Of a stretch of 64,000 bases of DNA, positions 1,911 through 64,000 are shown one piece after another. The stretch lies in contig CAOJDX010000005.1 in NCBI GenBank assembly GCA_948433435.1, positions 1-64,000 of the forward strand, given 5' to 3'. The stretch's first letter is position 1, and each line of letters starts with the position of its first letter. A program made the position numbers and the translations under genes. Under the pieces are notes generated by a model, which saw only the letters and a program-made list of their open reading frames with translations, was not told where the DNA came from and did no database searches. The stretch is from an uncultured Clostridia bacterium. Its GTDB lineage: Bacteria > Bacillota_I > Bacilli_A > RF39 > UBA660.

Positions 1911-4547
1911 TTACTTTCCGTTTTTAGAGTTGATTTTAATTAGTTTTTTATAGTCTTCACTTAAGTGATCTTCTCCTAATAAATTGTAACATTCTACTAG
2001 GGCCTTTAAATTTGAATTATGATATCCAGGTCTTCTTTTTTCATATTCCAAGAAACAATTTTTAGCTTGGTCGTATTCGTGGTTGTATAAATAAACTTTT
2101 CCTAAGCGAAAGTAGGCATTTGGTTCAGGGATTATTGATATTGCTTTTTGATAATTTTCTTGTGCTTCCTTATATTGTTTTAGATGTTCGTGATTTCTTC
2201 CCTTTAACAGATATCCTTTTGCATTTAAATCATTGTCTATTTGTATGTATAAGTCTATAATGTTAATACTTTTTTGATATTCCTTTTCTTGATAATAATA
2301 TCTTGCTGTATCATATAATTGTTCTTTTTTTACGAAAGTTGGGTTATTAATATCCTCTTTTAATATAGAAAGGCGAGATTGATGGTAGTCAATATTTCTA
2401 TTTTGGGTATTGTTTGCTATAAATTCTTGATATTGTTGGAGTTTAAGAGTAGCTTGCTCTAAATCTCCTCTGTTATAACTTTTTTTATATTCTTTTAATA
2501 GTTCTATTGCTTCATTGGTTTCAAATTGCTTTAAGAAGGTTAGAATGGTTTTTAGTTCTACAGTTAAATTTATACTAATTCCTTCTAAGTTATTATTCTG
2601 ATAGTATAGGTAAGCATCTAAATAGTTTTTTTCTTTTAATAATTTTTTTAAAGTATTTAGATGTTTAATTGTTGGATTTTCATCTTGTAGTTCTAATTCC
2701 TTATTATTTGCTGGTGTTTGTTCGTTATTTTTTAGCTGTTTATCTAGTTCTATTAATAAGCTTTTATATAGGGAAAAGTTTGAGTTATAGGGCAATTTTT
2801 TTTCTTTGATTATGTTCAATGCCTGTATATAGTCTCCAATACTAAGGGCTTTAAAGAATTTTTTTTCTATATCTTTTTCTTCATATGTAAATTGTTCAAA
2901 ATTGCTTATTGTTATATTTTCTTCCTTACTTCTTTTTAAAGTATCAATTAATTCTAAAGTATATTGATTGTATGTGATTTCTTCTTCTTTACATAATTCT
3001 AATTTCTCTTTTATAAGTTCTTCTAATGTATTAAGTTGATTTTCCATTAACTCTTTATTTTTCACAAAGCTATCAATTTTGTGGTTTATTTCTGTTAACT
3101 TTTCTTTTCTTAATTTCTCTTTTTCTAGTTGATTTATACATTCTAAAATGTCTTCTAGTAAATAGCGAAAGATAGTAAACTCTTCTTTATTTCTAGCTAT
3201 TTTTTCACAGGTAAAGGTTAAGTAGTAAGCCTCTTGGTAATCTTTAAATTTTATGGATTCAAAAAATCTTTTAATAGGATTTTGTTCTGTATAGGTATAG
3301 GTCGGATTTTTTTCTTGATAAACTGTACCTGTACTTTTTATCTTTTCCATAGTTTTGATTAATTTTAATGCTAGGGAGTAAGTATTGTTATATTCTTGGT
3401 TTAATTTTTCCTCTAAGATATTTTTTACTTGTTCATATTCTCTTTTATTAATTAATTGTGCAATATCTTGGATACTAAATTGTTCTTTTTTATTTTCTAA
3501 ATTACAGTTATTTTTAGTTGAATTGATTTTTTGTTGATTCTCTTTATTTTGATGAATTAATTTTTGAAGTAAGCTTCTATAAGAGATTAATATTTTATTG
3601 TTTGGGTTGAAGTAAATACATTTTCCAATATTTTTGTAAGCAGTTTGGAAATCATTTAGGGATAGAGCTCTGTCTAATATTTTAGTGTAGTTGTTATCCA
3701 AGTCCTTATAGTCTATTTCTTTTTCTGGTAATAATTGATTATTCTTTTTTATTTCTAAGTAATTATTTATTATTTGAATAAAATTTTTGATTGCCTTTTC
3801 CATATGTGGATGAGCATAAATAGCTATTTCATGTAGATTATTCAAAGCTTCTTCATAGTTTTCTTTGTCAATATTTTTTTCAAAAAGTTTATAATAGAAA
3901 TGGAATTTTTTTTCATTATCTTGTTTTATTTTTTGATTTATTTGTTCTTTTTTTTGTTGACTATTTTTATTTTTACTTAAGATGATTTGATTAGTTAGAA
4001 TAAAAAATAATTCAGTACTAATATTATTTTTATTTTTGCGTTCTCTTTCGAGATTTTTAAATTCAGAGATAGATGAATAGGCATTTTCAAAATCATGTGA
4101 TAATACTGCTTCACTAAAATTTATAAAATATTTATAGTAAGATCCAGTATGGTAATCTTTTTCTGAAAATATCATTAAATTATTTAAAGAGGGGAAGTCT
4201 TTTGGACTTTGTAATATTTCTTTAAGTAGTATGAAGTAAAGCATTAAATGATTATCGTAATCGTGAGTTGTTTGATTTTGTAGATTTATACATAGACTTT
4301 TATAGGCTTCTTCAAATTTACCATTTATAATATTTTTAGTGAATAATTTAAATGTTTGTTGTTTATTCTTATCTTTTGTGATTTTCGTAATTTGATATTT
4401 TCCGCGTTCTATTTTCTTTATTTTTCCTTCTTGGATGGCTTTTTTTATATAGTAGTCATTTAAACCATATTCTTTTAATTCCTTTGTTGTTCTTTCTTCT
4501 ATATTTGTCTCTTCTAATTGGTTTATTATTTCTTTCAAATCGATCAT
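1911..4547 (-). CDS. Large TPR-repeat protein with N-terminal winged-helix-like segment
   Basis: I do not recognise a named gene. The 878-residue product opens with about 55 residues that resemble the N-terminal wing of AbiEi-type antitoxin/regulator proteins (ending in the pattern GKIKKIERGKYQI). The rest is very rich in Lys, Glu, Asn and Ile and helical, with TPR-like pairs clearest at the C-terminus (about residues 750-860, with RYYYQEKEYQKSI, GRNHEHLKQYKEAQENYQKA and FRLGKVYLYNHEYDQAKNCF). It is cytoplasmic, without signal peptide or membrane segment. An ATG 60 bases upstream has no ribosome site, whereas the one chosen here follows AAAGGACG at normal spacing. A scaffold or regulatory role is an inference from TPR domains only. 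Confidence 0.75.
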   Translation of the reverse strand: MIDLKEIINQLEETNIEERTTKELKEYGLNDYYIKKAIQEGKIKKIERGKYQITKITKDKNKQQTFKLFTKNIINGKFEEAYKSLCINLQNQTTHDYDNHLMLYFILLKEILQSPKDFPSLNNLMIFSEKDYHTGSYYKYFINFSEAVLSHDFENAYSSISEFKNLERERKNKNNISTELFFILTNQIILSKNKNSQQKKEQINQKIKQDNEKKFHFYYKLFEKNIDKENYEEALNNLHEIAIYAHPHMEKAIKNFIQIINNYLEIKKNNQLLPEKEIDYKDLDNNYTKILDRALSLNDFQTAYKNIGKCIYFNPNNKILISYRSLLQKLIHQNKENQQKINSTKNNCNLENKKEQFSIQDIAQLINKREYEQVKNILEEKLNQEYNNTYSLALKLIKTMEKIKSTGTVYQEKNPTYTYTEQNPIKRFFESIKFKDYQEAYYLTFTCEKIARNKEEFTIFRYLLEDILECINQLEKEKLRKEKLTEINHKIDSFVKNKELMENQLNTLEELIKEKLELCKEEEITYNQYTLELIDTLKRSKEENITISNFEQFTYEEKDIEKKFFKALSIGDYIQALNIIKEKKLPYNSNFSLYKSLLIELDKQLKNNEQTPANNKELELQDENPTIKHLNTLKKLLKEKNYLDAYLYYQNNNLEGISINLTVELKTILTFLKQFETNEAIELLKEYKKSYNRGDLEQATLKLQQYQEFIANNTQNRNIDYHQSRLSILKEDINNPTFVKKEQLYDTARYYYQEKEYQKSINIIDLYIQIDNDLNAKGYLLKGRNHEHLKQYKEAQENYQKAISIIPEPNAYFRLGKVYLYNHEYDQAKNCFLEYEKRRPGYHNSNLKALVECYNLLGEDHLSEDYKKLIKINSKNGK

Positions 4548-4571
4548 ATTTATCGTCCTTTTCTTTAATTT

Positions 4572-4591
4572 TAGCAAGAGATTACTTGCTA
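4572..4591. promoter_or_regulatory. 7-bp inverted repeat in leader of the TPR gene
   Basis: TAGCAAG and CTTGCTA flank a 6-base loop just upstream of the chosen start codon at 4547. It could be an operator or an mRNA leader hairpin. Nothing more can be said from one copy. Confidence 0.3.
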
Positions 4592-4682
4592 TTTTTAATT
4601 TTACCATAATTCTAGTTTTAGGGAGCTATTTTTTTTAAATGATGATATAATGATATGTAGAATAATAAAGGAGGAAGAAAAA

Positions 4683-5465
4683 ATGAAATTAGAAGGAAAA
4701 GTTGCTGTTGTAACTGGAGGGGCAATGGGAAATGGTCTTGGTATTGTTAAAGTATTTTTAAAATATGGAGCGGATGTTGTAATTGTTGATTATTCTGATC
4801 AAATTAGTAAAACTATTCAGGAACTTAATCATCCAAAAGTTACAGGATATAAAGCAGATATTCGTGATGCTGCTATGCTTCAGGGAATTGTTAAAGATGT
4901 TATTGCTAAAAAGGGAAAAATTGATATTTTAGTCAATAATGCAGGTATTGCAAAATTAGAGAAATTTGTAGATATGTCAGATGAAGTTAGAAATGCTCAT
5001 TTTGATATTAATATTAGTGGTACATGGAATATGACTAAAGCAGTTGTTCCTACTATGATTGAAAAAAAATATGGAAAAATTGTTAACTTATCTAGTGTTA
5101 CAGGACCTATGGTTGCGGATAGTGGAGAAGTAGCTTATGCTACAACTAAAGCTGCTCTAATTGGGTTTACTAAGGGTCTTGCTATGGAACTGGTTGATCA
5201 TCATATTAATGTGAATGCCATTATGCCTGGATATATTATGACCCCTATGGTTGAAGGTATTGCTAAAGATTCCAATCAAAGTGATCCTAGTAGTGTTATT
5301 CAGGGTATTGCTAATGGTATTCCTATGAAAAGGTTAGGAACAATAGAAGAGTTAGGAGAGTTAGCTGCTTTCTTAGCAAGTGATGAGTCAACTTATATTA
5401 CGGGTCAGGGAATTGTTATTGATGGTGGTTCTACTTTGCCAGAAACAATGAGTGTAGGGGCTTAA
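4683..5465 (+). CDS. ucpA: SDR-family oxidoreductase, UcpA-like
   Basis: A 260-residue classical short-chain dehydrogenase. The NAD(P)-binding glycine motif is TGGAMGNGLG (residues 12-21), NNAG lies near 88, the catalytic serine is in SSVTG near 138 and YATTK (YxxxK) is near 155. The C-terminus GGSTLPETMSVGA matches the ending I recall for the UcpA subfamily, which is unusually distinctive; the substrate of that family is not established. The start is placed at the ATG after AAAGGAGG; an in-frame start 33 bases upstream would add residues before the Rossmann fold and has no ribosome site. It is a single gene, divergent from the TPR gene and ending at a bidirectional terminator. Confidence 0.88.
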   Translation: MKLEGKVAVVTGGAMGNGLGIVKVFLKYGADVVIVDYSDQISKTIQELNHPKVTGYKADIRDAAMLQGIVKDVIAKKGKIDILVNNAGIAKLEKFVDMSDEVRNAHFDINISGTWNMTKAVVPTMIEKKYGKIVNLSSVTGPMVADSGEVAYATTKAALIGFTKGLAMELVDHHINVNAIMPGYIMTPMVEGIAKDSNQSDPSSVIQGIANGIPMKRLGTIEELGELAAFLASDESTYITGQGIVIDGGSTLPETMSVGA

Positions 5466-56994: not shown

Positions 56995-58485
56995 ATGAAT
57001 TCTAAAAATTCAAAATCAAAAAAACAATTTAAATTAGATAAACATTCTAGTGCTAGTTTAGTTCTTGCATTTACGTTTGTGTGTTTTATGTTTACTATGT
57101 TTATGGCTTCTAATCAAATTGGGACAAGTTATGCTGTACCAACTAATTCAGTGCCTAAATCTTTAAAATTTAGTGGACAGATTTTTGCAGACTCTACTAC
57201 AATATGGGATTTTATGGTGCAAGACGATGGATCTGGGAATCCAGCAGAGCCTATATTATTTTTAAAGTATAATTTTAAGGCTACAGATGAGGCTACTAGT
57301 ACTCAATATGATATGTATTGTATTGAAGGGCAAAATGCTACTTTAGGTGAAGGGTATTATGACCTAGATACAGAGCTTGAATCAACATATGCTCCAGGAT
57401 TGGCCTTTATTTTAAGAAATTCTTATCCAACTGCTCCTAGTTCTTCTTTTATGACAGCATGTGATAATGCTAATGGAATGCAAGGGGTAAAACCAGATGA
57501 TTGTAAGAAATATGCTACTCAATATGCAGTGTGGTATTATTTAGATAAGATGGGTATTAAGGATCGTGCTAGTCGTACTCAGTTAGCAACTGGTGTAATG
57601 CCAAAAATTGACCTTTTAGCACGTCGTGATGGTGGTCTTTATCGTGGAGCTGCTGAAGTTGTTACAAAATTAGCTACTGCTGCTATTACCTATAATTCAC
57701 AACAACAAACTGCTGCTACTATTTCTATTAATAAAAATAGTATTCAATATCAACTTTCAGAAGATGGAACTTATTTAGAAAGTAATGATATTGCTGTTTC
57801 TAGTAATAAAACTTTAAATAATTATAGTGTTGGTTTTAATAGTAATAATTGTGATGCAAAAATTGTTGATGTTAATGGTAATGATAGTACAGTTTTCAAC
57901 TATGGTAATAGTTTTAGAATTAGAATTCCTGTTGAAAAATTAAATACTTTAGATACTGTTGATTTAGTTGTAGCTGTTACTGGTAGTTATACAACAGATA
58001 CTGTTTATGCTTATAAAAAACGTGATGATGCTTCTGCACAAAGACCAATTATAGCAGGTTATACAGATGGAGTAGCTACAGTTTCTATTACATTAGATAG
58101 TAAATTAGTTAAAATTATTAAGACTGATAAAGAAACTGGAAAGCCAGTTGCAGGGGCAGTACTTGCGATATTAGGCGCTGATGGTAATGAAATAACTCGT
58201 TTTACAACTACAGAGCAACCTTATTATCTTAATTTAGCAGCAGGTAATTATCTTTTAAAAGAAATTACTTCACCAACTGGTTATGAGTTAAACTCTGAAG
58301 AAATTCCATTTACTGTTACTGAAGATACTACTATTAATCAAGTAGAAATGAAAAATACTCCAACAACAGATGTTCCTGATACTGCTTCTAATATTCCTAC
58401 ATATTTATATATTATAGGTAGTATGATTCTAATTATTGGACTTTCAGTAATTGTTGTTAGTACAAAGAAAAATAGAAACAGTTAA
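56995..58485 (+). CDS. Thioester-domain adhesin with SpaA/Cna-B-type domain and sorting signal
   Basis: A 496-residue surface protein. After a signal sequence (hydrophobic 21-40, cut near SYA) comes a thioester domain: the cysteine in DMYCIEGQ (about 118) and the glutamine in YATQYAVWYYL (about 178) match the YCI and TQxAVW motifs that form an internal Cys-Gln bond in streptococcal adhesins. A Cna-B/SpaA-like domain (about 378-460: KIIKTDKETGKPVAGAVLAI, YLLKEITSPTGYEL) follows. The C-terminus has a sorting signal with VPDTASN in place of LPxTG, a hydrophobic helix and a KKNRN tail. The sortase gene overlaps its stop by one base. It should be wall-anchored and able to bind host or matrix amines covalently. 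Confidence 0.85.
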   Translation: MNSKNSKSKKQFKLDKHSSASLVLAFTFVCFMFTMFMASNQIGTSYAVPTNSVPKSLKFSGQIFADSTTIWDFMVQDDGSGNPAEPILFLKYNFKATDEATSTQYDMYCIEGQNATLGEGYYDLDTELESTYAPGLAFILRNSYPTAPSSSFMTACDNANGMQGVKPDDCKKYATQYAVWYYLDKMGIKDRASRTQLATGVMPKIDLLARRDGGLYRGAAEVVTKLATAAITYNSQQQTAATISINKNSIQYQLSEDGTYLESNDIAVSSNKTLNNYSVGFNSNNCDAKIVDVNGNDSTVFNYGNSFRIRIPVEKLNTLDTVDLVVAVTGSYTTDTVYAYKKRDDASAQRPIIAGYTDGVATVSITLDSKLVKIIKTDKETGKPVAGAVLAILGADGNEITRFTTTEQPYYLNLAAGNYLLKEITSPTGYELNSEEIPFTVTEDTTINQVEMKNTPTTDVPDTASNIPTYLYIIGSMILIIGLSVIVVSTKKNRNS

Positions 58486-59156
58486 TGAAAAGAATTAATG
58501 AATTAAAAAAGAGTCAAATCTTATTACTTGGCTCTTTCCTTATATTAGTTGGGGTTGTTATATTATTTAATGGTTATTTTAAAGTCTTAAAAGAAGAAAT
58601 TTATGAAGATGTTCGATTAAGCCTAATCGATCAGTCTAGTGGTACAAACGATCCAGATCGTGTTACTGATTCAGAGGGGGTTAGTAATTTAGATACTAGT
58701 AATTCTAATCAAAATTCCAATCAGCTAGATAATTCTAATACTTCACCAAAAAAAAATTATAGTTATATTGGATATTTAGAAATTCCTAAAATAAAACTTA
58801 AAAGGGGTTTTTTGAATAAGGAATCTAAATATAATTCTATTGATTATAATATTATGGTTTCTTATAATGCTGATTATCCTGATGTAGTGAATGGAAACTT
58901 TATTTTAGTTGCTCATTCAGGAGATGCTTATATTTCTTTCTTTGCTTATTTATATAAGCTTAAAGTAGGAGATTTTGCTTATGTTACTTATCAAGGGCAT
59001 AAGTACAAATATCAGCTTGTTAAGATAGAAGAACAGCCAAAGACAGGAGTTGTTGCTATTCATAGACCAAATTATGAAGTTAATGGTCTTACTTTAATTA
59101 CTTGTACTAAAGATAACGATTCTACACAAACTATTTATATTTTTGAACTTGTTTAG
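58485..59156 (+). CDS. Sortase (class B/D-like)
   Basis: A 223-residue sortase. N-terminal membrane helix (12-32), Ser/Asn/Asp-rich stalk (40-88), then the beta barrel: YLEIPKIKLKRGF, catalytic His in FILVAHSG and catalytic Cys in LTLITCTK. The Arg normally found a few residues after the Cys (TC...R) is not seen; the stretch reads DNDSTQTIYIF. Start overlaps the adhesin stop (TAATG), so the adhesin with VPDTA is its likely substrate. The class is uncertain. Confidence 0.85.
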   Translation: MKRINELKKSQILLLGSFLILVGVVILFNGYFKVLKEEIYEDVRLSLIDQSSGTNDPDRVTDSEGVSNLDTSNSNQNSNQLDNSNTSPKKNYSYIGYLEIPKIKLKRGFLNKESKYNSIDYNIMVSYNADYPDVVNGNFILVAHSGDAYISFFAYLYKLKVGDFAYVTYQGHKYKYQLVKIEEQPKTGVVAIHRPNYEVNGLTLITCTKDNDSTQTIYIFELV

Positions 59157-60595: not shown

Positions 60596-60682
60596 AGAAT
60601 CACCTATTAATACCATAGCAGAAATTTGTAAAAATATGAATATAAATGTTTGAAAAACATAATTTTTAGTAGGAGTGATAGG

Positions 60683-61846
60683 ATGAAGAAGTTTTTTTGT
60701 TTTGTATTATTAGGAGTACTCTTTTTATTTCCTGTAAATATTTTTGCGGAGGAAGAGGTAGATAATCATGAATTAATTAAAGGAGCGGTTAGTGGTGTTT
60801 TAATGGAACAGTCAACTGGTGAAATTATTTTCGAGAAGGATATGGATAAACAGGTAGCGATTGCTTCTATGACTAAAATGGTTGCACAGATTATTATTCT
60901 AGAAAATATTGAGTCTGGTAAGATTAAGTGGACAGATATTGTTACAGTTAGTAAAAATGCTGCTGATATGGGTGGTTCACAGATTTATTTATCAGCTAAT
61001 GAGAAGATGAGTGTTAAAGACTTATTTAAGGGAATTAGCATGGCTAGTGCTAATGATGGAACAGTAGCTATGGCTGAATATATTAGTGGTAGTGAAGAGA
61101 AATTTGTAAAGTTAATGAATCAGAAAGTTCAAGATTTGGGACTTAAAAATACAGTATTTAAAAATTGTACTGGTCTTGATGAAGAGGGACACTATTCTAG
61201 TGCCTATGATATGGCTATGATTGCTAAAGAACTTTTATCTCATAAAGAAATACTTAATTTTTCTTCTGTTTATGAAGATTATTTGAGGGTGAATACACCT
61301 AATAAATTTTGGCTTGTCAATACTAATAAATTGGTTCGTCTTTATGATGGGGCGGATGGGTTGAAAACAGGACATACGGATAATGCAGGATATTGTTTAG
61401 CGGTTACAGCTAAGAGAGATGGCATGCGTTTAATAGGTGTAGTTTTAGGAGAAGAGACAGCTAAAATTCGAAATAGTGAAGCTAGTAGTTTACTTGATTA
61501 TGGATTTAGTAATAAAAAGGTTCAATCTATAAAAAAAGATAGTGATGTTGTGAAAACACTTGAATTAGAGAAGGCTACAGTTGATCAAATAAAAGTTTAT
61601 CCTAAACAAGATATTAATATTTTACAGGATAAGGGAGTTAGTAATAAAAAATATGAGATTAGTACGAAAATCAAGAAAATTAATTTACCTCTTAAGAAAA
61701 ATGATGTGGTAGGTACCTTAACTGTTAGTGAAAAAGGGAAAAAAGTTTATGTCGGAGATTTAGTAGTAAAGCAGGATGTTGATAAACTTAATTTTATTGA
61801 ATTGTTTTTAAGAAATATGCAAGGAATTGTCGTAGGAGAAATTTAA
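60683..61846 (+). CDS. dacF: D-alanyl-D-alanine carboxypeptidase, DacF-like (PBP5 family)
   Basis: A serine DD-carboxypeptidase. The 387-residue product has a signal peptide (cut near IFA), SMTK (catalytic Ser/Lys, about residue 63), SAND (SxN, near 117), KTGHT (KTG, near 227), and a C-terminal beta domain ending in an amphipathic helix (FIELFLRNMQGI) that holds it to the membrane. Its position just before spoIIAA is the same as dacF in Bacillus, where it is involved in spore cortex synthesis. The start follows AGGAGTG. Confidence 0.9.
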   Translation: MKKFFCFVLLGVLFLFPVNIFAEEEVDNHELIKGAVSGVLMEQSTGEIIFEKDMDKQVAIASMTKMVAQIIILENIESGKIKWTDIVTVSKNAADMGGSQIYLSANEKMSVKDLFKGISMASANDGTVAMAEYISGSEEKFVKLMNQKVQDLGLKNTVFKNCTGLDEEGHYSSAYDMAMIAKELLSHKEILNFSSVYEDYLRVNTPNKFWLVNTNKLVRLYDGADGLKTGHTDNAGYCLAVTAKRDGMRLIGVVLGEETAKIRNSEASSLLDYGFSNKKVQSIKKDSDVVKTLELEKATVDQIKVYPKQDINILQDKGVSNKKYEISTKIKKINLPLKKNDVVGTLTVSEKGKKVYVGDLVVKQDVDKLNFIELFLRNMQGIVVGEI

Positions 61847-62000: not shown

Positions 62001-62336
62001 ATGAATATCATGACAGAAGTTAGTAGGGGAATATTTTTTTTAAGATTTGATGGAGTTTTTGATACTAATTCTTTTAATCGATTTAATGAAGAAATAGATT
62101 ACTTATTGTATCGTCAAGGTGTTAGTTTCTATGCATTTAATTTTAGTCATGTCAAAAAAATTGAAGAAGGCTTACTTTCCAAAATTCAAAGTAAATTGAT
62201 AGAAATATTTTTAAATTGTGGACAAGTTGTGCTGTGTGGAGTCAATCATCTTTATCAAGAAAAAATAGGTCATGGTAGAGAGCAGTTATATTATGTAAAT
62301 GATGAAAGAGAAGCATTTCAGTTAATTAATTTATAG
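62001..62336 (+). CDS. spoIIAA: Divergent SpoIIAA-like anti-sigma-F antagonist (STAS)
   Basis: A 111-residue STAS-like protein in the spoIIA operon position. The fold is plausible (VSRGIFFLRFDGVFDTNSF, FYAFNFSHVKKIEEGLLSKI, CGQVVLCGVN). In SpoIIAA the strand is followed by DSSG, whose serine is phosphorylated by SpoIIAB; here the matching place reads IEEG, with Glu instead of Ser. No spoIIAB follows: the sigma gene begins 11 bp later. Regulation must differ from Bacillus. The ribosome site is GTAGGAG. Confidence 0.75.
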   Translation: MNIMTEVSRGIFFLRFDGVFDTNSFNRFNEEIDYLLYRQGVSFYAFNFSHVKKIEEGLLSKIQSKLIEIFLNCGQVVLCGVNHLYQEKIGHGREQLYYVNDEREAFQLINL

Positions 62337-62347
62337 GAGCGATGAAA

Positions 62348-62512
62348 ATGGACGTTGATTTCATATTGGATTATGAGTGGGTAGTTCATTCTGTTATTCG
62401 AAAGTTTAGTGGTTATAGTGATTATGAAGATTTGTATCAAGTAGGAATGATGGCATTGGTTAAAGCTTATCAAAATTATAATGGAAAAGAGGAGAATGTT
62501 ATATATGAGTAA
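62348..62512 (+). CDS. sigF: N-terminal fragment of split SigF-like sigma factor (region 2.1-2.2)
   Basis: A 54-codon frame after AGGAGCGATGAAA. It encodes sigma-70 region 2.1-2.2: FILDYEWVVHSVIRKFSGY and EDLYQVGMMALVKAYQNYN, the core-binding part. It stops at 62510 and the remaining sigma regions continue in another frame from 62505, with 8 bases of overlap. It may be half of a two-piece sigma factor or the result of a frameshift. Confidence 0.7.
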   Translation: MDVDFILDYEWVVHSVIRKFSGYSDYEDLYQVGMMALVKAYQNYNGKEENVIYE

Positions 62513-63032
62513 TTGTATGGGAAATACTGCTGCTAAATTTTCAACCTATGCATATTATTATGTTTTAGGAGAAGTGACGAAGTATATAAGAGAAGATAGA
62601 ACAGTTAAGATTAGTAGAGATTATATTAAACTAAATCAGTCTATTGAAAAGGCAAGAGATTTGTTAAGACAAAAACTTTTAAGAGAACCTACTGATTTAG
62701 AAGTTTCCTTATTTTTAGATATAGACGAGGAAAAAATGATGTTAGCGAAAAATGCTACTATGTATGTTAAAAGTTTAGATGAAATGGTAGATAGTGATGA
62801 AAAGTTAAGTTATTATAATTGTGTTCAATTCTATGACAAAGAGATGGATAGCTCTATTATGGATTTAAATGAACAATTAGGAAAACTTACAGAGGAAGAT
62901 AAAAAAATTATTTATGATCGGTATTATAAAGGTTATACTCAGTCTGAAGTTTCTAAAAACATGGGAATTAGTCAGGTACAAGTATCAAGAAAAGAAGCTA
63001 AGGTATTAGAAAAACTAAAGGTTAGACTTTAA
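62505..63032 (+). CDS. sigF: C-terminal part of split SigF-like sigma factor (regions 2.3-4)
   Basis: A 175-residue frame with region 2.3-2.4 (AAKFSTYAYYYVLGEVTKYIRED), region 3 (KISRDYIKLNQSIEKARDLL, REPTDLEVSLFLDID) and region 4 helix-turn-helix (YTQSEVSKNMGISQVQVSRKEAKVLEKL). The core-binding helices 2.1-2.2 are in the preceding frame. A possible ribosome site, AGAGGAG, lies 10 bases before ATG 62505, so it could be translated as a separate subunit; ATG 62481 is another in-frame start. SigF and SigG are close relatives, but the position after spoIIAA and before spoVAC favours SigF. Confidence 0.78.
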   Translation: MSNCMGNTAAKFSTYAYYYVLGEVTKYIREDRTVKISRDYIKLNQSIEKARDLLRQKLLREPTDLEVSLFLDIDEEKMMLAKNATMYVKSLDEMVDSDEKLSYYNCVQFYDKEMDSSIMDLNEQLGKLTEEDKKIIYDRYYKGYTQSEVSKNMGISQVQVSRKEAKVLEKLKVRL

Positions 63033-63154: not shown

Positions 63155-63601
63155 ATGAAAAATGAAAAATATGAAAAAATTATACAAAAGCATCGTCCAA
63201 CAGAACAGCGAGTTAATAATGCCTTTATTGCTTTTATGATAGGTGGAGGAGTAGGTGCATTGGGAGAGATTTTAATTCAAGTATTTTGTATGGTCTTTCA
63301 TGTATCTAGAACAGAGGCTAGTGTTTTTATGATTATTACTTTAATTTTCTTGGCTGCTTTATTTACCGCATTAGGTTTCTTTGATAAGTGGGTTACTTTT
63401 GGAAAGTGTGGTTTATTAATTCCAATTACAGGTTTTGCTCATTCGATGATGAGTGCCTCACTTGAATATAAAAGAGAAGGACTGGTAACAGGAATCGGGA
63501 CTAATGCTTTTAAATTAGCTGGTACGGTTATTGTTTATGGGGTTGTATCGGCTTGGACTTTTGGTGTGATTCGTCTACTTATAGGAGGTGGTTTGGTATG
63601 A
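63155..63601 (+). CDS. spoVAC: Stage V sporulation protein AC
   Basis: SpoVAC is a membrane subunit of the SpoVA channel that moves dipicolinic acid into the forespore and out at germination. The 148-residue product has the family pattern: YEKIIQKHRPTEQRVNNAFIAFMIGGGVGALGE, a central LGFFDKWVTFGKCGLLIPITGFAHSMMS and a final KREGLVTGIGTNAFKLAG...G. Four to five membrane segments are visible. It overlaps spoVAD by 4 bases (ATGA). The ribosome site is GGTGAT. Confidence 0.95.
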   Translation: MKNEKYEKIIQKHRPTEQRVNNAFIAFMIGGGVGALGEILIQVFCMVFHVSRTEASVFMIITLIFLAALFTALGFFDKWVTFGKCGLLIPITGFAHSMMSASLEYKREGLVTGIGTNAFKLAGTVIVYGVVSAWTFGVIRLLIGGGLV

Positions 63602-64000
63602 CTTTTCATTTTCGAAATGTTTATTTGAATGAAGTGGCTACTATAGCTGGTCCTTATGAAAAGAAAGGACCTTTAGGAAAATACTTTGATGAATGTTATA
63701 CTGATTTATATTGTGGAGCGAAATCTTGGGAAAAAGCAGAAGTTAAAATTTTAAATGAAAGTATGAAGAAAGCTTTACAGAAAAATAAATTGAAAAGTGA
63801 TGATATTGATTTAGTTATATCTGGAGATTTATTGAATCAAATTTCTTCTTCTAGTTATGCAGTTAATGATTTAAATAGACCTTTTTTTGGAATTTATGGA
63901 GCATGCAGTACTAATGTAGAAGGATTAATTATTGGTTCTAGTTTAATTTCTTCTAAATTTATCGATAAATGTTTGTGTAGTGTTAGTTCTCATAATATGT
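63598..64000 (+). CDS. spoVAD: Stage V sporulation protein AD, partial
   Basis: The gene runs off the window; 134 codons are visible. The N-terminus is typical of SpoVAD, a soluble SpoVA subunit with a ketoacyl-synthase-like fold: AGPYEKKGPLGKYFDE, GAKSWEKAEVKIL, DLVISGDLLNQISSSSYA and GIYGACSTNVEGL, where the thiolase-type cysteine region lies. It is coupled to spoVAC by a 4-base overlap, with ribosome site ATAGGAGGTGG. Confidence 0.92.
   Translation, partial: MTFHFRNVYLNEVATIAGPYEKKGPLGKYFDECYTDLYCGAKSWEKAEVKILNESMKKALQKNKLKSDDIDLVISGDLLNQISSSSYAVNDLNRPFFGIYGACSTNVEGLIIGSSLISSKFIDKCLCSVSSHNM

Follow-up and report, generated by a model that had tools for sequence, protein, structure and literature searches.

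A sporulation sigma factor gene, sigF, in two conserved pieces that probably encode a two-part SigF in an uncultured Clostridia bacterium

The genes dacF, a STAS-domain gene, sigF, spoVAC, and spoVAD, in that order, make up the 3' end of the window (the whole stretch of DNA that was analyzed, 64,000 nt), and this synteny is conserved between the window and its relatives. The sigF gene is present as two open reading frames, piece A and piece B. The features are as follows.

60650..61846, + strand: dacF, D-alanyl-D-alanine carboxypeptidase, first gene in a spoIIA-type locus (ORF; Pfam Peptidase_S11, E 4e-78, and PBP5_C)
62001..62336, + strand: STAS-domain, SpoIIAA-like protein (Pfam STAS, E 1.1e-4; TIGR02886 spIIAA, E 1e-3)
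62348..62512, + strand: sigF piece A, sigma regions 2.1-2.2, stop TAA (ORF, Pfam, TIGR02885)
62488..62494, + strand: AGAGGAG, presumed ribosome-binding site for piece B (sequence; 10 nt before ATG 62505)
62505..62512, + strand: ATGAGTAA, 8 nt shared by the start of piece B and the stop of piece A (sequence)
62505..63032, + strand: sigF piece B, regions 2.3-2.4, 3, and 4 (TIGR02885 spore_sigF, E 1e-36; Sigma70_r3/r4)
63155..63601, + strand: spoVAC (TIGR02838, E 1.5e-44; Pfam SpoVAC_SpoVAEB, E 1e-29)
63598..64000, + strand: spoVAD, start of the gene, which runs off the window (TIGR02845, E 1.8e-47)

The frame of piece A is open from the ATG at 62342 and ends with the TAA at 62510-62512; its start is likely at 62348 because the counterpart in a related genome (G002/L003) has only that ATG after AGGAG. 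The frame of piece B is open further upstream and runs to 63032, with candidate ATG codons at 62481, 62496, 62505, and 62517, among which 62505 is the most likely start judging from the sequence, and translational coupling at the overlap is presumed. The products, SigF-A and SigF-B, would be about 55 and 175 aa in length. Piece A matched positions 6-46 of Pfam Sigma70_r2 (E 1.4e-6), and piece B matched Sigma70_r3 and Sigma70_r4. On the SigF profile TIGR02885, piece A covered positions 23-59 and piece B positions 61-230, adjoining with nothing missing, and on phrog_351 the two pieces likewise covered adjoining stretches of one profile (508-553 and 557-723). The break falls in the 2.2-2.3 loop, and no part of domain 2 is lost. 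Residues D30, L31, and Q33 of region 2.2 were invariant in all 19 of the 19 aligned SigF proteins, and the alignment gave the 2.2-2.3 loop approximately 13-20 extra residues in the split genes compared with single-chain relatives. An earlier note, made from the letters of the window, had described two frames with an 8-base overlap carrying regions 2.1-2.2 and 2.3-4, the second with its own AGAGGAG and ATG, and had proposed that extra loop residues created the second start; the ORFs, Pfam, and TIGR02885 agree on the two frames, the AGAGGAG at 62488-62494 with ATG 62505 downstream bears out the second description, and the extra loop residues fit the proposal.

By locus and profile searches, the sigma factor, called a sporulation sigma in the same note, was assigned to SigF, which governs the early forespore, on the gene order and the profile matches. 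The best family for piece B was TIGR02885; the score fell short of the curated cut-off, which is set for whole proteins and is hardly attainable for one piece. Among solved chains, the family profile matched 1l0o_C, SigF of the SpoIIAB complex, best (E 1.5e-54), and the next solved chain followed at E 1.7e-37. The best profile and the best solved relative are thus those of the Bacillus/Geobacillus SigF (SpoIIAC), and the order dacF, spoIIAA-like gene, and sigF, with spoVA genes next, is also shared in part with that system. Unlike in Bacillus/Geobacillus, the protein is encoded as two chains instead of one (in genomes G000, G002, G003, and G007, see below), and no spoIIAB separates the STAS gene from sigF.

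Among 40 related genomes searched, G003, G002, and G007 (records L031-L033; the window genome is G000) proved to have the same 2.2/2.3 split; they are three other species of the same genus of uncultured gut bacteria, with separately assembled genomes. Over the split genomes, the open frames were 56-60 aa for piece A and 176-193 aa for piece B, and the A-to-B spacing ranged from -14 to +9 nt. The junction of G003 (L002), ATGAATAG, has an architecture like that of G000, and the junction of G002, ATGGTAATATCTAA, has a 14-nt overlap; in G000, G003, and G002 alike, piece B is in the +1 frame and starts before piece A ends. The junction of G007 (GAA AGT TAG TGA TAA AAT ATG) has no overlap, and piece B lies in frame with piece A behind three different stops, TAG TGA TAA. 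A sigK-like excision of intervening DNA was rejected on the frame spacing, and recoding of TGA as Trp at the junctions was rejected on the stops themselves, which are TAA, TAG, TAA, and TAG-TGA-TAA.

The named-genome scan found the split in L031-L033 only, of 37 SigF-like loci examined. In an order-wide sample of 288 genomes plus two added searches (a few genomes lacking a match were left unlisted), approximately 250 other genomes had a single-chain SigF. The listed SigF-type frames were about 203-269 aa, the exceptions being the split genomes, partial matches or contig-end fragments (e.g., G131, G263, G304, and G069), and G136 and G256, whose frames are 197 aa. The latter two were rejected as further splits: each is interrupted by one in-frame TGA, at the same position in both. 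The earlier note had asked for an orthologue alignment and had named uninterrupted frames in relatives, together with an indel in the raw reads, as counting against a genuine split; the distant relatives are indeed uninterrupted, but the closest ones, G003, G002, and G007, carry the same split at 2.2/2.3.

Both halves are under purifying selection, and neither is decaying. Pairwise dN/dS (NG86), computed only for pairs with estimable synonymous change and giving rough rates with synonymous sites near or at saturation, was 0.10-0.30 for piece A and 0.10-0.25 for piece B, and 0.07-0.16 for the comparison genes dacF, spoVAC, and spoVAD. In two separate within-clade pairs (G000-G003 and G002-G007), 36/52 changes in piece A and 131/224 in piece B fell at third positions (p 1.3e-7 and 1.2e-14, respectively, against one third). 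The split is not a matter of chance, since it is shared by three related species and shows this third-position excess. Such selection indicates that each half is kept and is no proof of joint action.

The fold was modeled with AlphaFold2 using the G007 pieces joined into one chain by reading through the three stops, so that the model speaks to the fold and not to association of the pieces. The mean pLDDT was 78, with both halves mostly confident helices; confidence was low at the junction (residues 55-61, pLDDT <50) and at residues 144-167, before region 4, and the pTM was low (0.40), with the domains loosely placed. Model residues 2-85 aligned with the sigma-2 domain of 8b3z_C over 73 residues (rmsd 2.4), and residues 5-85 aligned with 4x8k_A (rmsd 2.0). 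As modeled, both halves keep a sigma-2 sequence that is compatible with the fold.

One related species, G004, has a single-chain SigF and falls inside the split clade both in the sigma tree and in a tree of STAS, SpoVAC, and SpoVAD (support of 87 for G002+G004+G007). Regions 3-4 of its SigF are nearest to G002 and G007 (70 and 67%), while regions 2.1-2.4 are nearest to a single-chain relative, L034 (isolate RUG13689; 53% vs 43% for G007), and the change-over in this mosaic lies around region 2.3. The mosaic gene itself is record L094, complement of about 4098-4763. G004 apparently underwent a secondary re-fusion through recombination with an outside single-chain sigF, and the sequences suggest, as the simplest history, a single split after which the 5' half was replaced in G004, making the gene one chain again. 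A history of two separate splits, instead of one split and a re-fusion, would require the same number of steps, namely two.

The sporulation genes around this sigma factor were surveyed in the split genomes. Spo0A was over the cut-off and a SigG-like frame of 273 aa was present in all four; SigE and SpoIVA were present in G000, G002, and G003. SpoIVA was not found in the G007 assembly, which is fragmented (290 contigs), and the SigE search there gave only partial sigma matches. A genus search with piece A found no second, intact SigF copy in the four split genomes, although such a copy could be absent just from the assemblies, which are MAGs of 85-94% completeness; the other piece A match in each split genome was SigG. 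In 41 family genomes, no match to SpoIIAB rose over the cut-off, and most of the weaker matches were long kinase-like frames; no SpoIIE over the cut-off was found in eight genus genomes (G006 had a partial match, E 2.3e-21). The gene set for control of SigF by SpoIIAB/SpoIIAA/SpoIIE was incomplete, with SpoIIAB and SpoIIE below the cut-offs. These absences agree with a report on the order RF39 in which spoIIAB and spoIIE are reduced or absent and sporulation with altered regulation is predicted (PMC10868615); that report disagrees on RF39 sporulation with another, in which RF39 MAGs were assigned no sporulation (PMC12536801). The window itself is likely to belong to RF39, judging from its neighbors, which include Candidatus Faecimonas and Caccenecus records.

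The STAS gene, wherever it was seen in the relatives examined, lies directly before sigF without spoIIAB between them. The STAS protein of the window scored 22.3 bits against a Pfam cut-off of 22.6, which was passed by six of seven relatives, with L032 below. The DSSG-type phosphorylation motif is missing from the STAS protein of the split clade and was lost in some single-chain relatives too. The SpoIIAA-like STAS protein is kept beside sigF even though SpoIIAB was not found in the 41 family genomes.

The sequence comparisons indicate that the locus probably encodes a conserved two-part SigF, neither a broken gene nor the product of a sequencing error. In other sigma factors, the hairpin of regions 2.1-2.2 holds the beta-prime clamp helices; core binding is mainly through region 2.2, and the -10 and -35 elements are recognized via region 2.4 and region 4, respectively. 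Our favored reading, to which we give a probability of roughly three in four, is that SigF consists of two subunits, translated together, which reconstitute domain 2 and act as one working sigma factor. One mRNA would give coupled translation of SigF-A, a helical hairpin of regions 2.1-2.2, and SigF-B, comprising the 2.3-2.4 helix, sigma-3, and sigma-4. The two would associate while being made, restoring domain 2 across an open 2.2-2.3 loop, and the assembled pair would act as a single sigma on RNA polymerase, directing forespore transcription. Neither half should work alone because region 2.2 is on piece A, and region 2.4 and region 4 are on piece B. We infer that the two peptides are produced, pair with each other, bind core RNA polymerase, and drive forespore transcription.

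It is quite unlikely that the pieces have separate jobs, with B a sigma factor or DNA-binding regulator and A a regulator such as a competitor for core RNA polymerase. Such a role would suit a piece A that is its own gene and very highly conserved (82-93% identity), and a new regulator would be useful where SpoIIAB is missing, but A and B add up to one complete domain 2 and no more, B is without region 2.2, the main core-binding part in known sigma factors, and the apparently re-fused G004 suggests the same job for the joined form. The +1 placement and overlap of piece B in G000, G003, and G002 would also be expected of a programmed +1 ribosomal frameshift or, with stop read-through, of expression as one joined SigF, a reading that is distinctly improbable. 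A shared programmed frameshift is excluded because G007 has TAG TGA TAA in frame, so that three consecutive different stops would have to be read; the four junctions showed no common slippery site, piece B has a start of its own in each species, and the joined loop sequence is unconserved. Decay of sigF, as a recent pseudogene or along with loss of sporulation, is very unlikely: spoIIAB and spoIIE are among several sporulation genes that RF39-type bacteria have already lost (PMC10868615), but both halves are kept in four species with low dN/dS at nearly saturated synonymous sites and without further stops, and Spo0A and SigG are intact in all four genomes and SigE and SpoIVA in three of the four. 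The probability that assembly or sequencing introduced an indel into the window is practically negligible, because the split recurs, with different junction sequences, in three other separately assembled MAGs. Of the possibilities left standing by the earlier note, a simple frameshift or sequencing error is therefore set aside on the separate assemblies and differing junctions, and a real two-piece sigma factor is favored by the recurrence of the split, with joint action of two subunits as the proposed extension.

If the two-subunit SigF operates as proposed, obligate pairing of A and B might, speculatively, limit SigF activity where SpoIIAB and SpoIIE have been lost. That assembly of the obligate heterodimer took over part of the SpoIIAB/SpoIIE control and gates forespore expression is a doubtful proposition.

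Other divided sigma factors differ from this arrangement. In sigK with skin-type elements, a sporulation sigma gene lies in two parts that are rejoined by DNA excision; here, with a spacing of -14 to +9 nt, there is nothing to excise. SigO-RsoA, as described in PMC8103513 and PMC10028694 (which cite MacLellan 2009 and Xue 2016 for the original work), consists of two polypeptides that have to act together as a sigma factor. The likeness is that sigma functions are carried on two gene products, which is known here from gene structure. In SigO-RsoA, however, sigma-2 (RsoA) and sigma-4 (SigO) are apart and the system is an acid-stress sigma, whereas here domain 2 itself is divided between 2.2 and 2.3, regions 2.3-4 are kept together, and the factor is a sporulation sigma; no SigO- or RsoA-named family was among the profile matches listed for the window proteins. 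Phage T4 gp55-gp33, called a "split sigma" (PMC2988020), divides the functions of domains 2 and 4 between two proteins. It differs in that gp33 is without discernible sigma sequence similarity, the genes are widely separated, and the split lies between domains. A split inside region 2 had been called unusual beforehand, and the comparison supports this: the known two-part sigma factors part domain 2 from domain 4, and no report of a split inside sigma domain 2, or of a split sporulation sigma factor, was found in the open-access papers searched.

A natural 2.2/2.3 break kept by selection, if working, would show that the sigma-2 fold itself can function as two chains, and it provides genetic circuits with a split site that already exists in nature. 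The single-chain relatives, the split clade, and one likely re-fused species form a natural before-and-after set, and the system gives a handle on how sigma-F stays off in lineages without SpoIIAB and SpoIIE.

Further observations were made alongside. In G007, the N- and C-terminal parts of a sigK-like gene are separated by about 5.8 kb on the same strand (G007:C21; L104 and 5-355), and in G002 they lie on two contigs, C33 and C41; both arrangements resemble interruption by a skin-type element, and the sigK frame of G000 is uninterrupted. In two species of one genus (L105 and L106; G256 and G136), the in-frame TGA of sigF lies in region 2.1, ATTTGAAAG, and TGA is possibly read as Trp in that genus. 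Within the window, the ORF translations at 56995-59156 indicate a large surface protein, secreted and with a membrane anchor at its C-terminus, and, directly after it, a sortase-like protein at 58485-59156.
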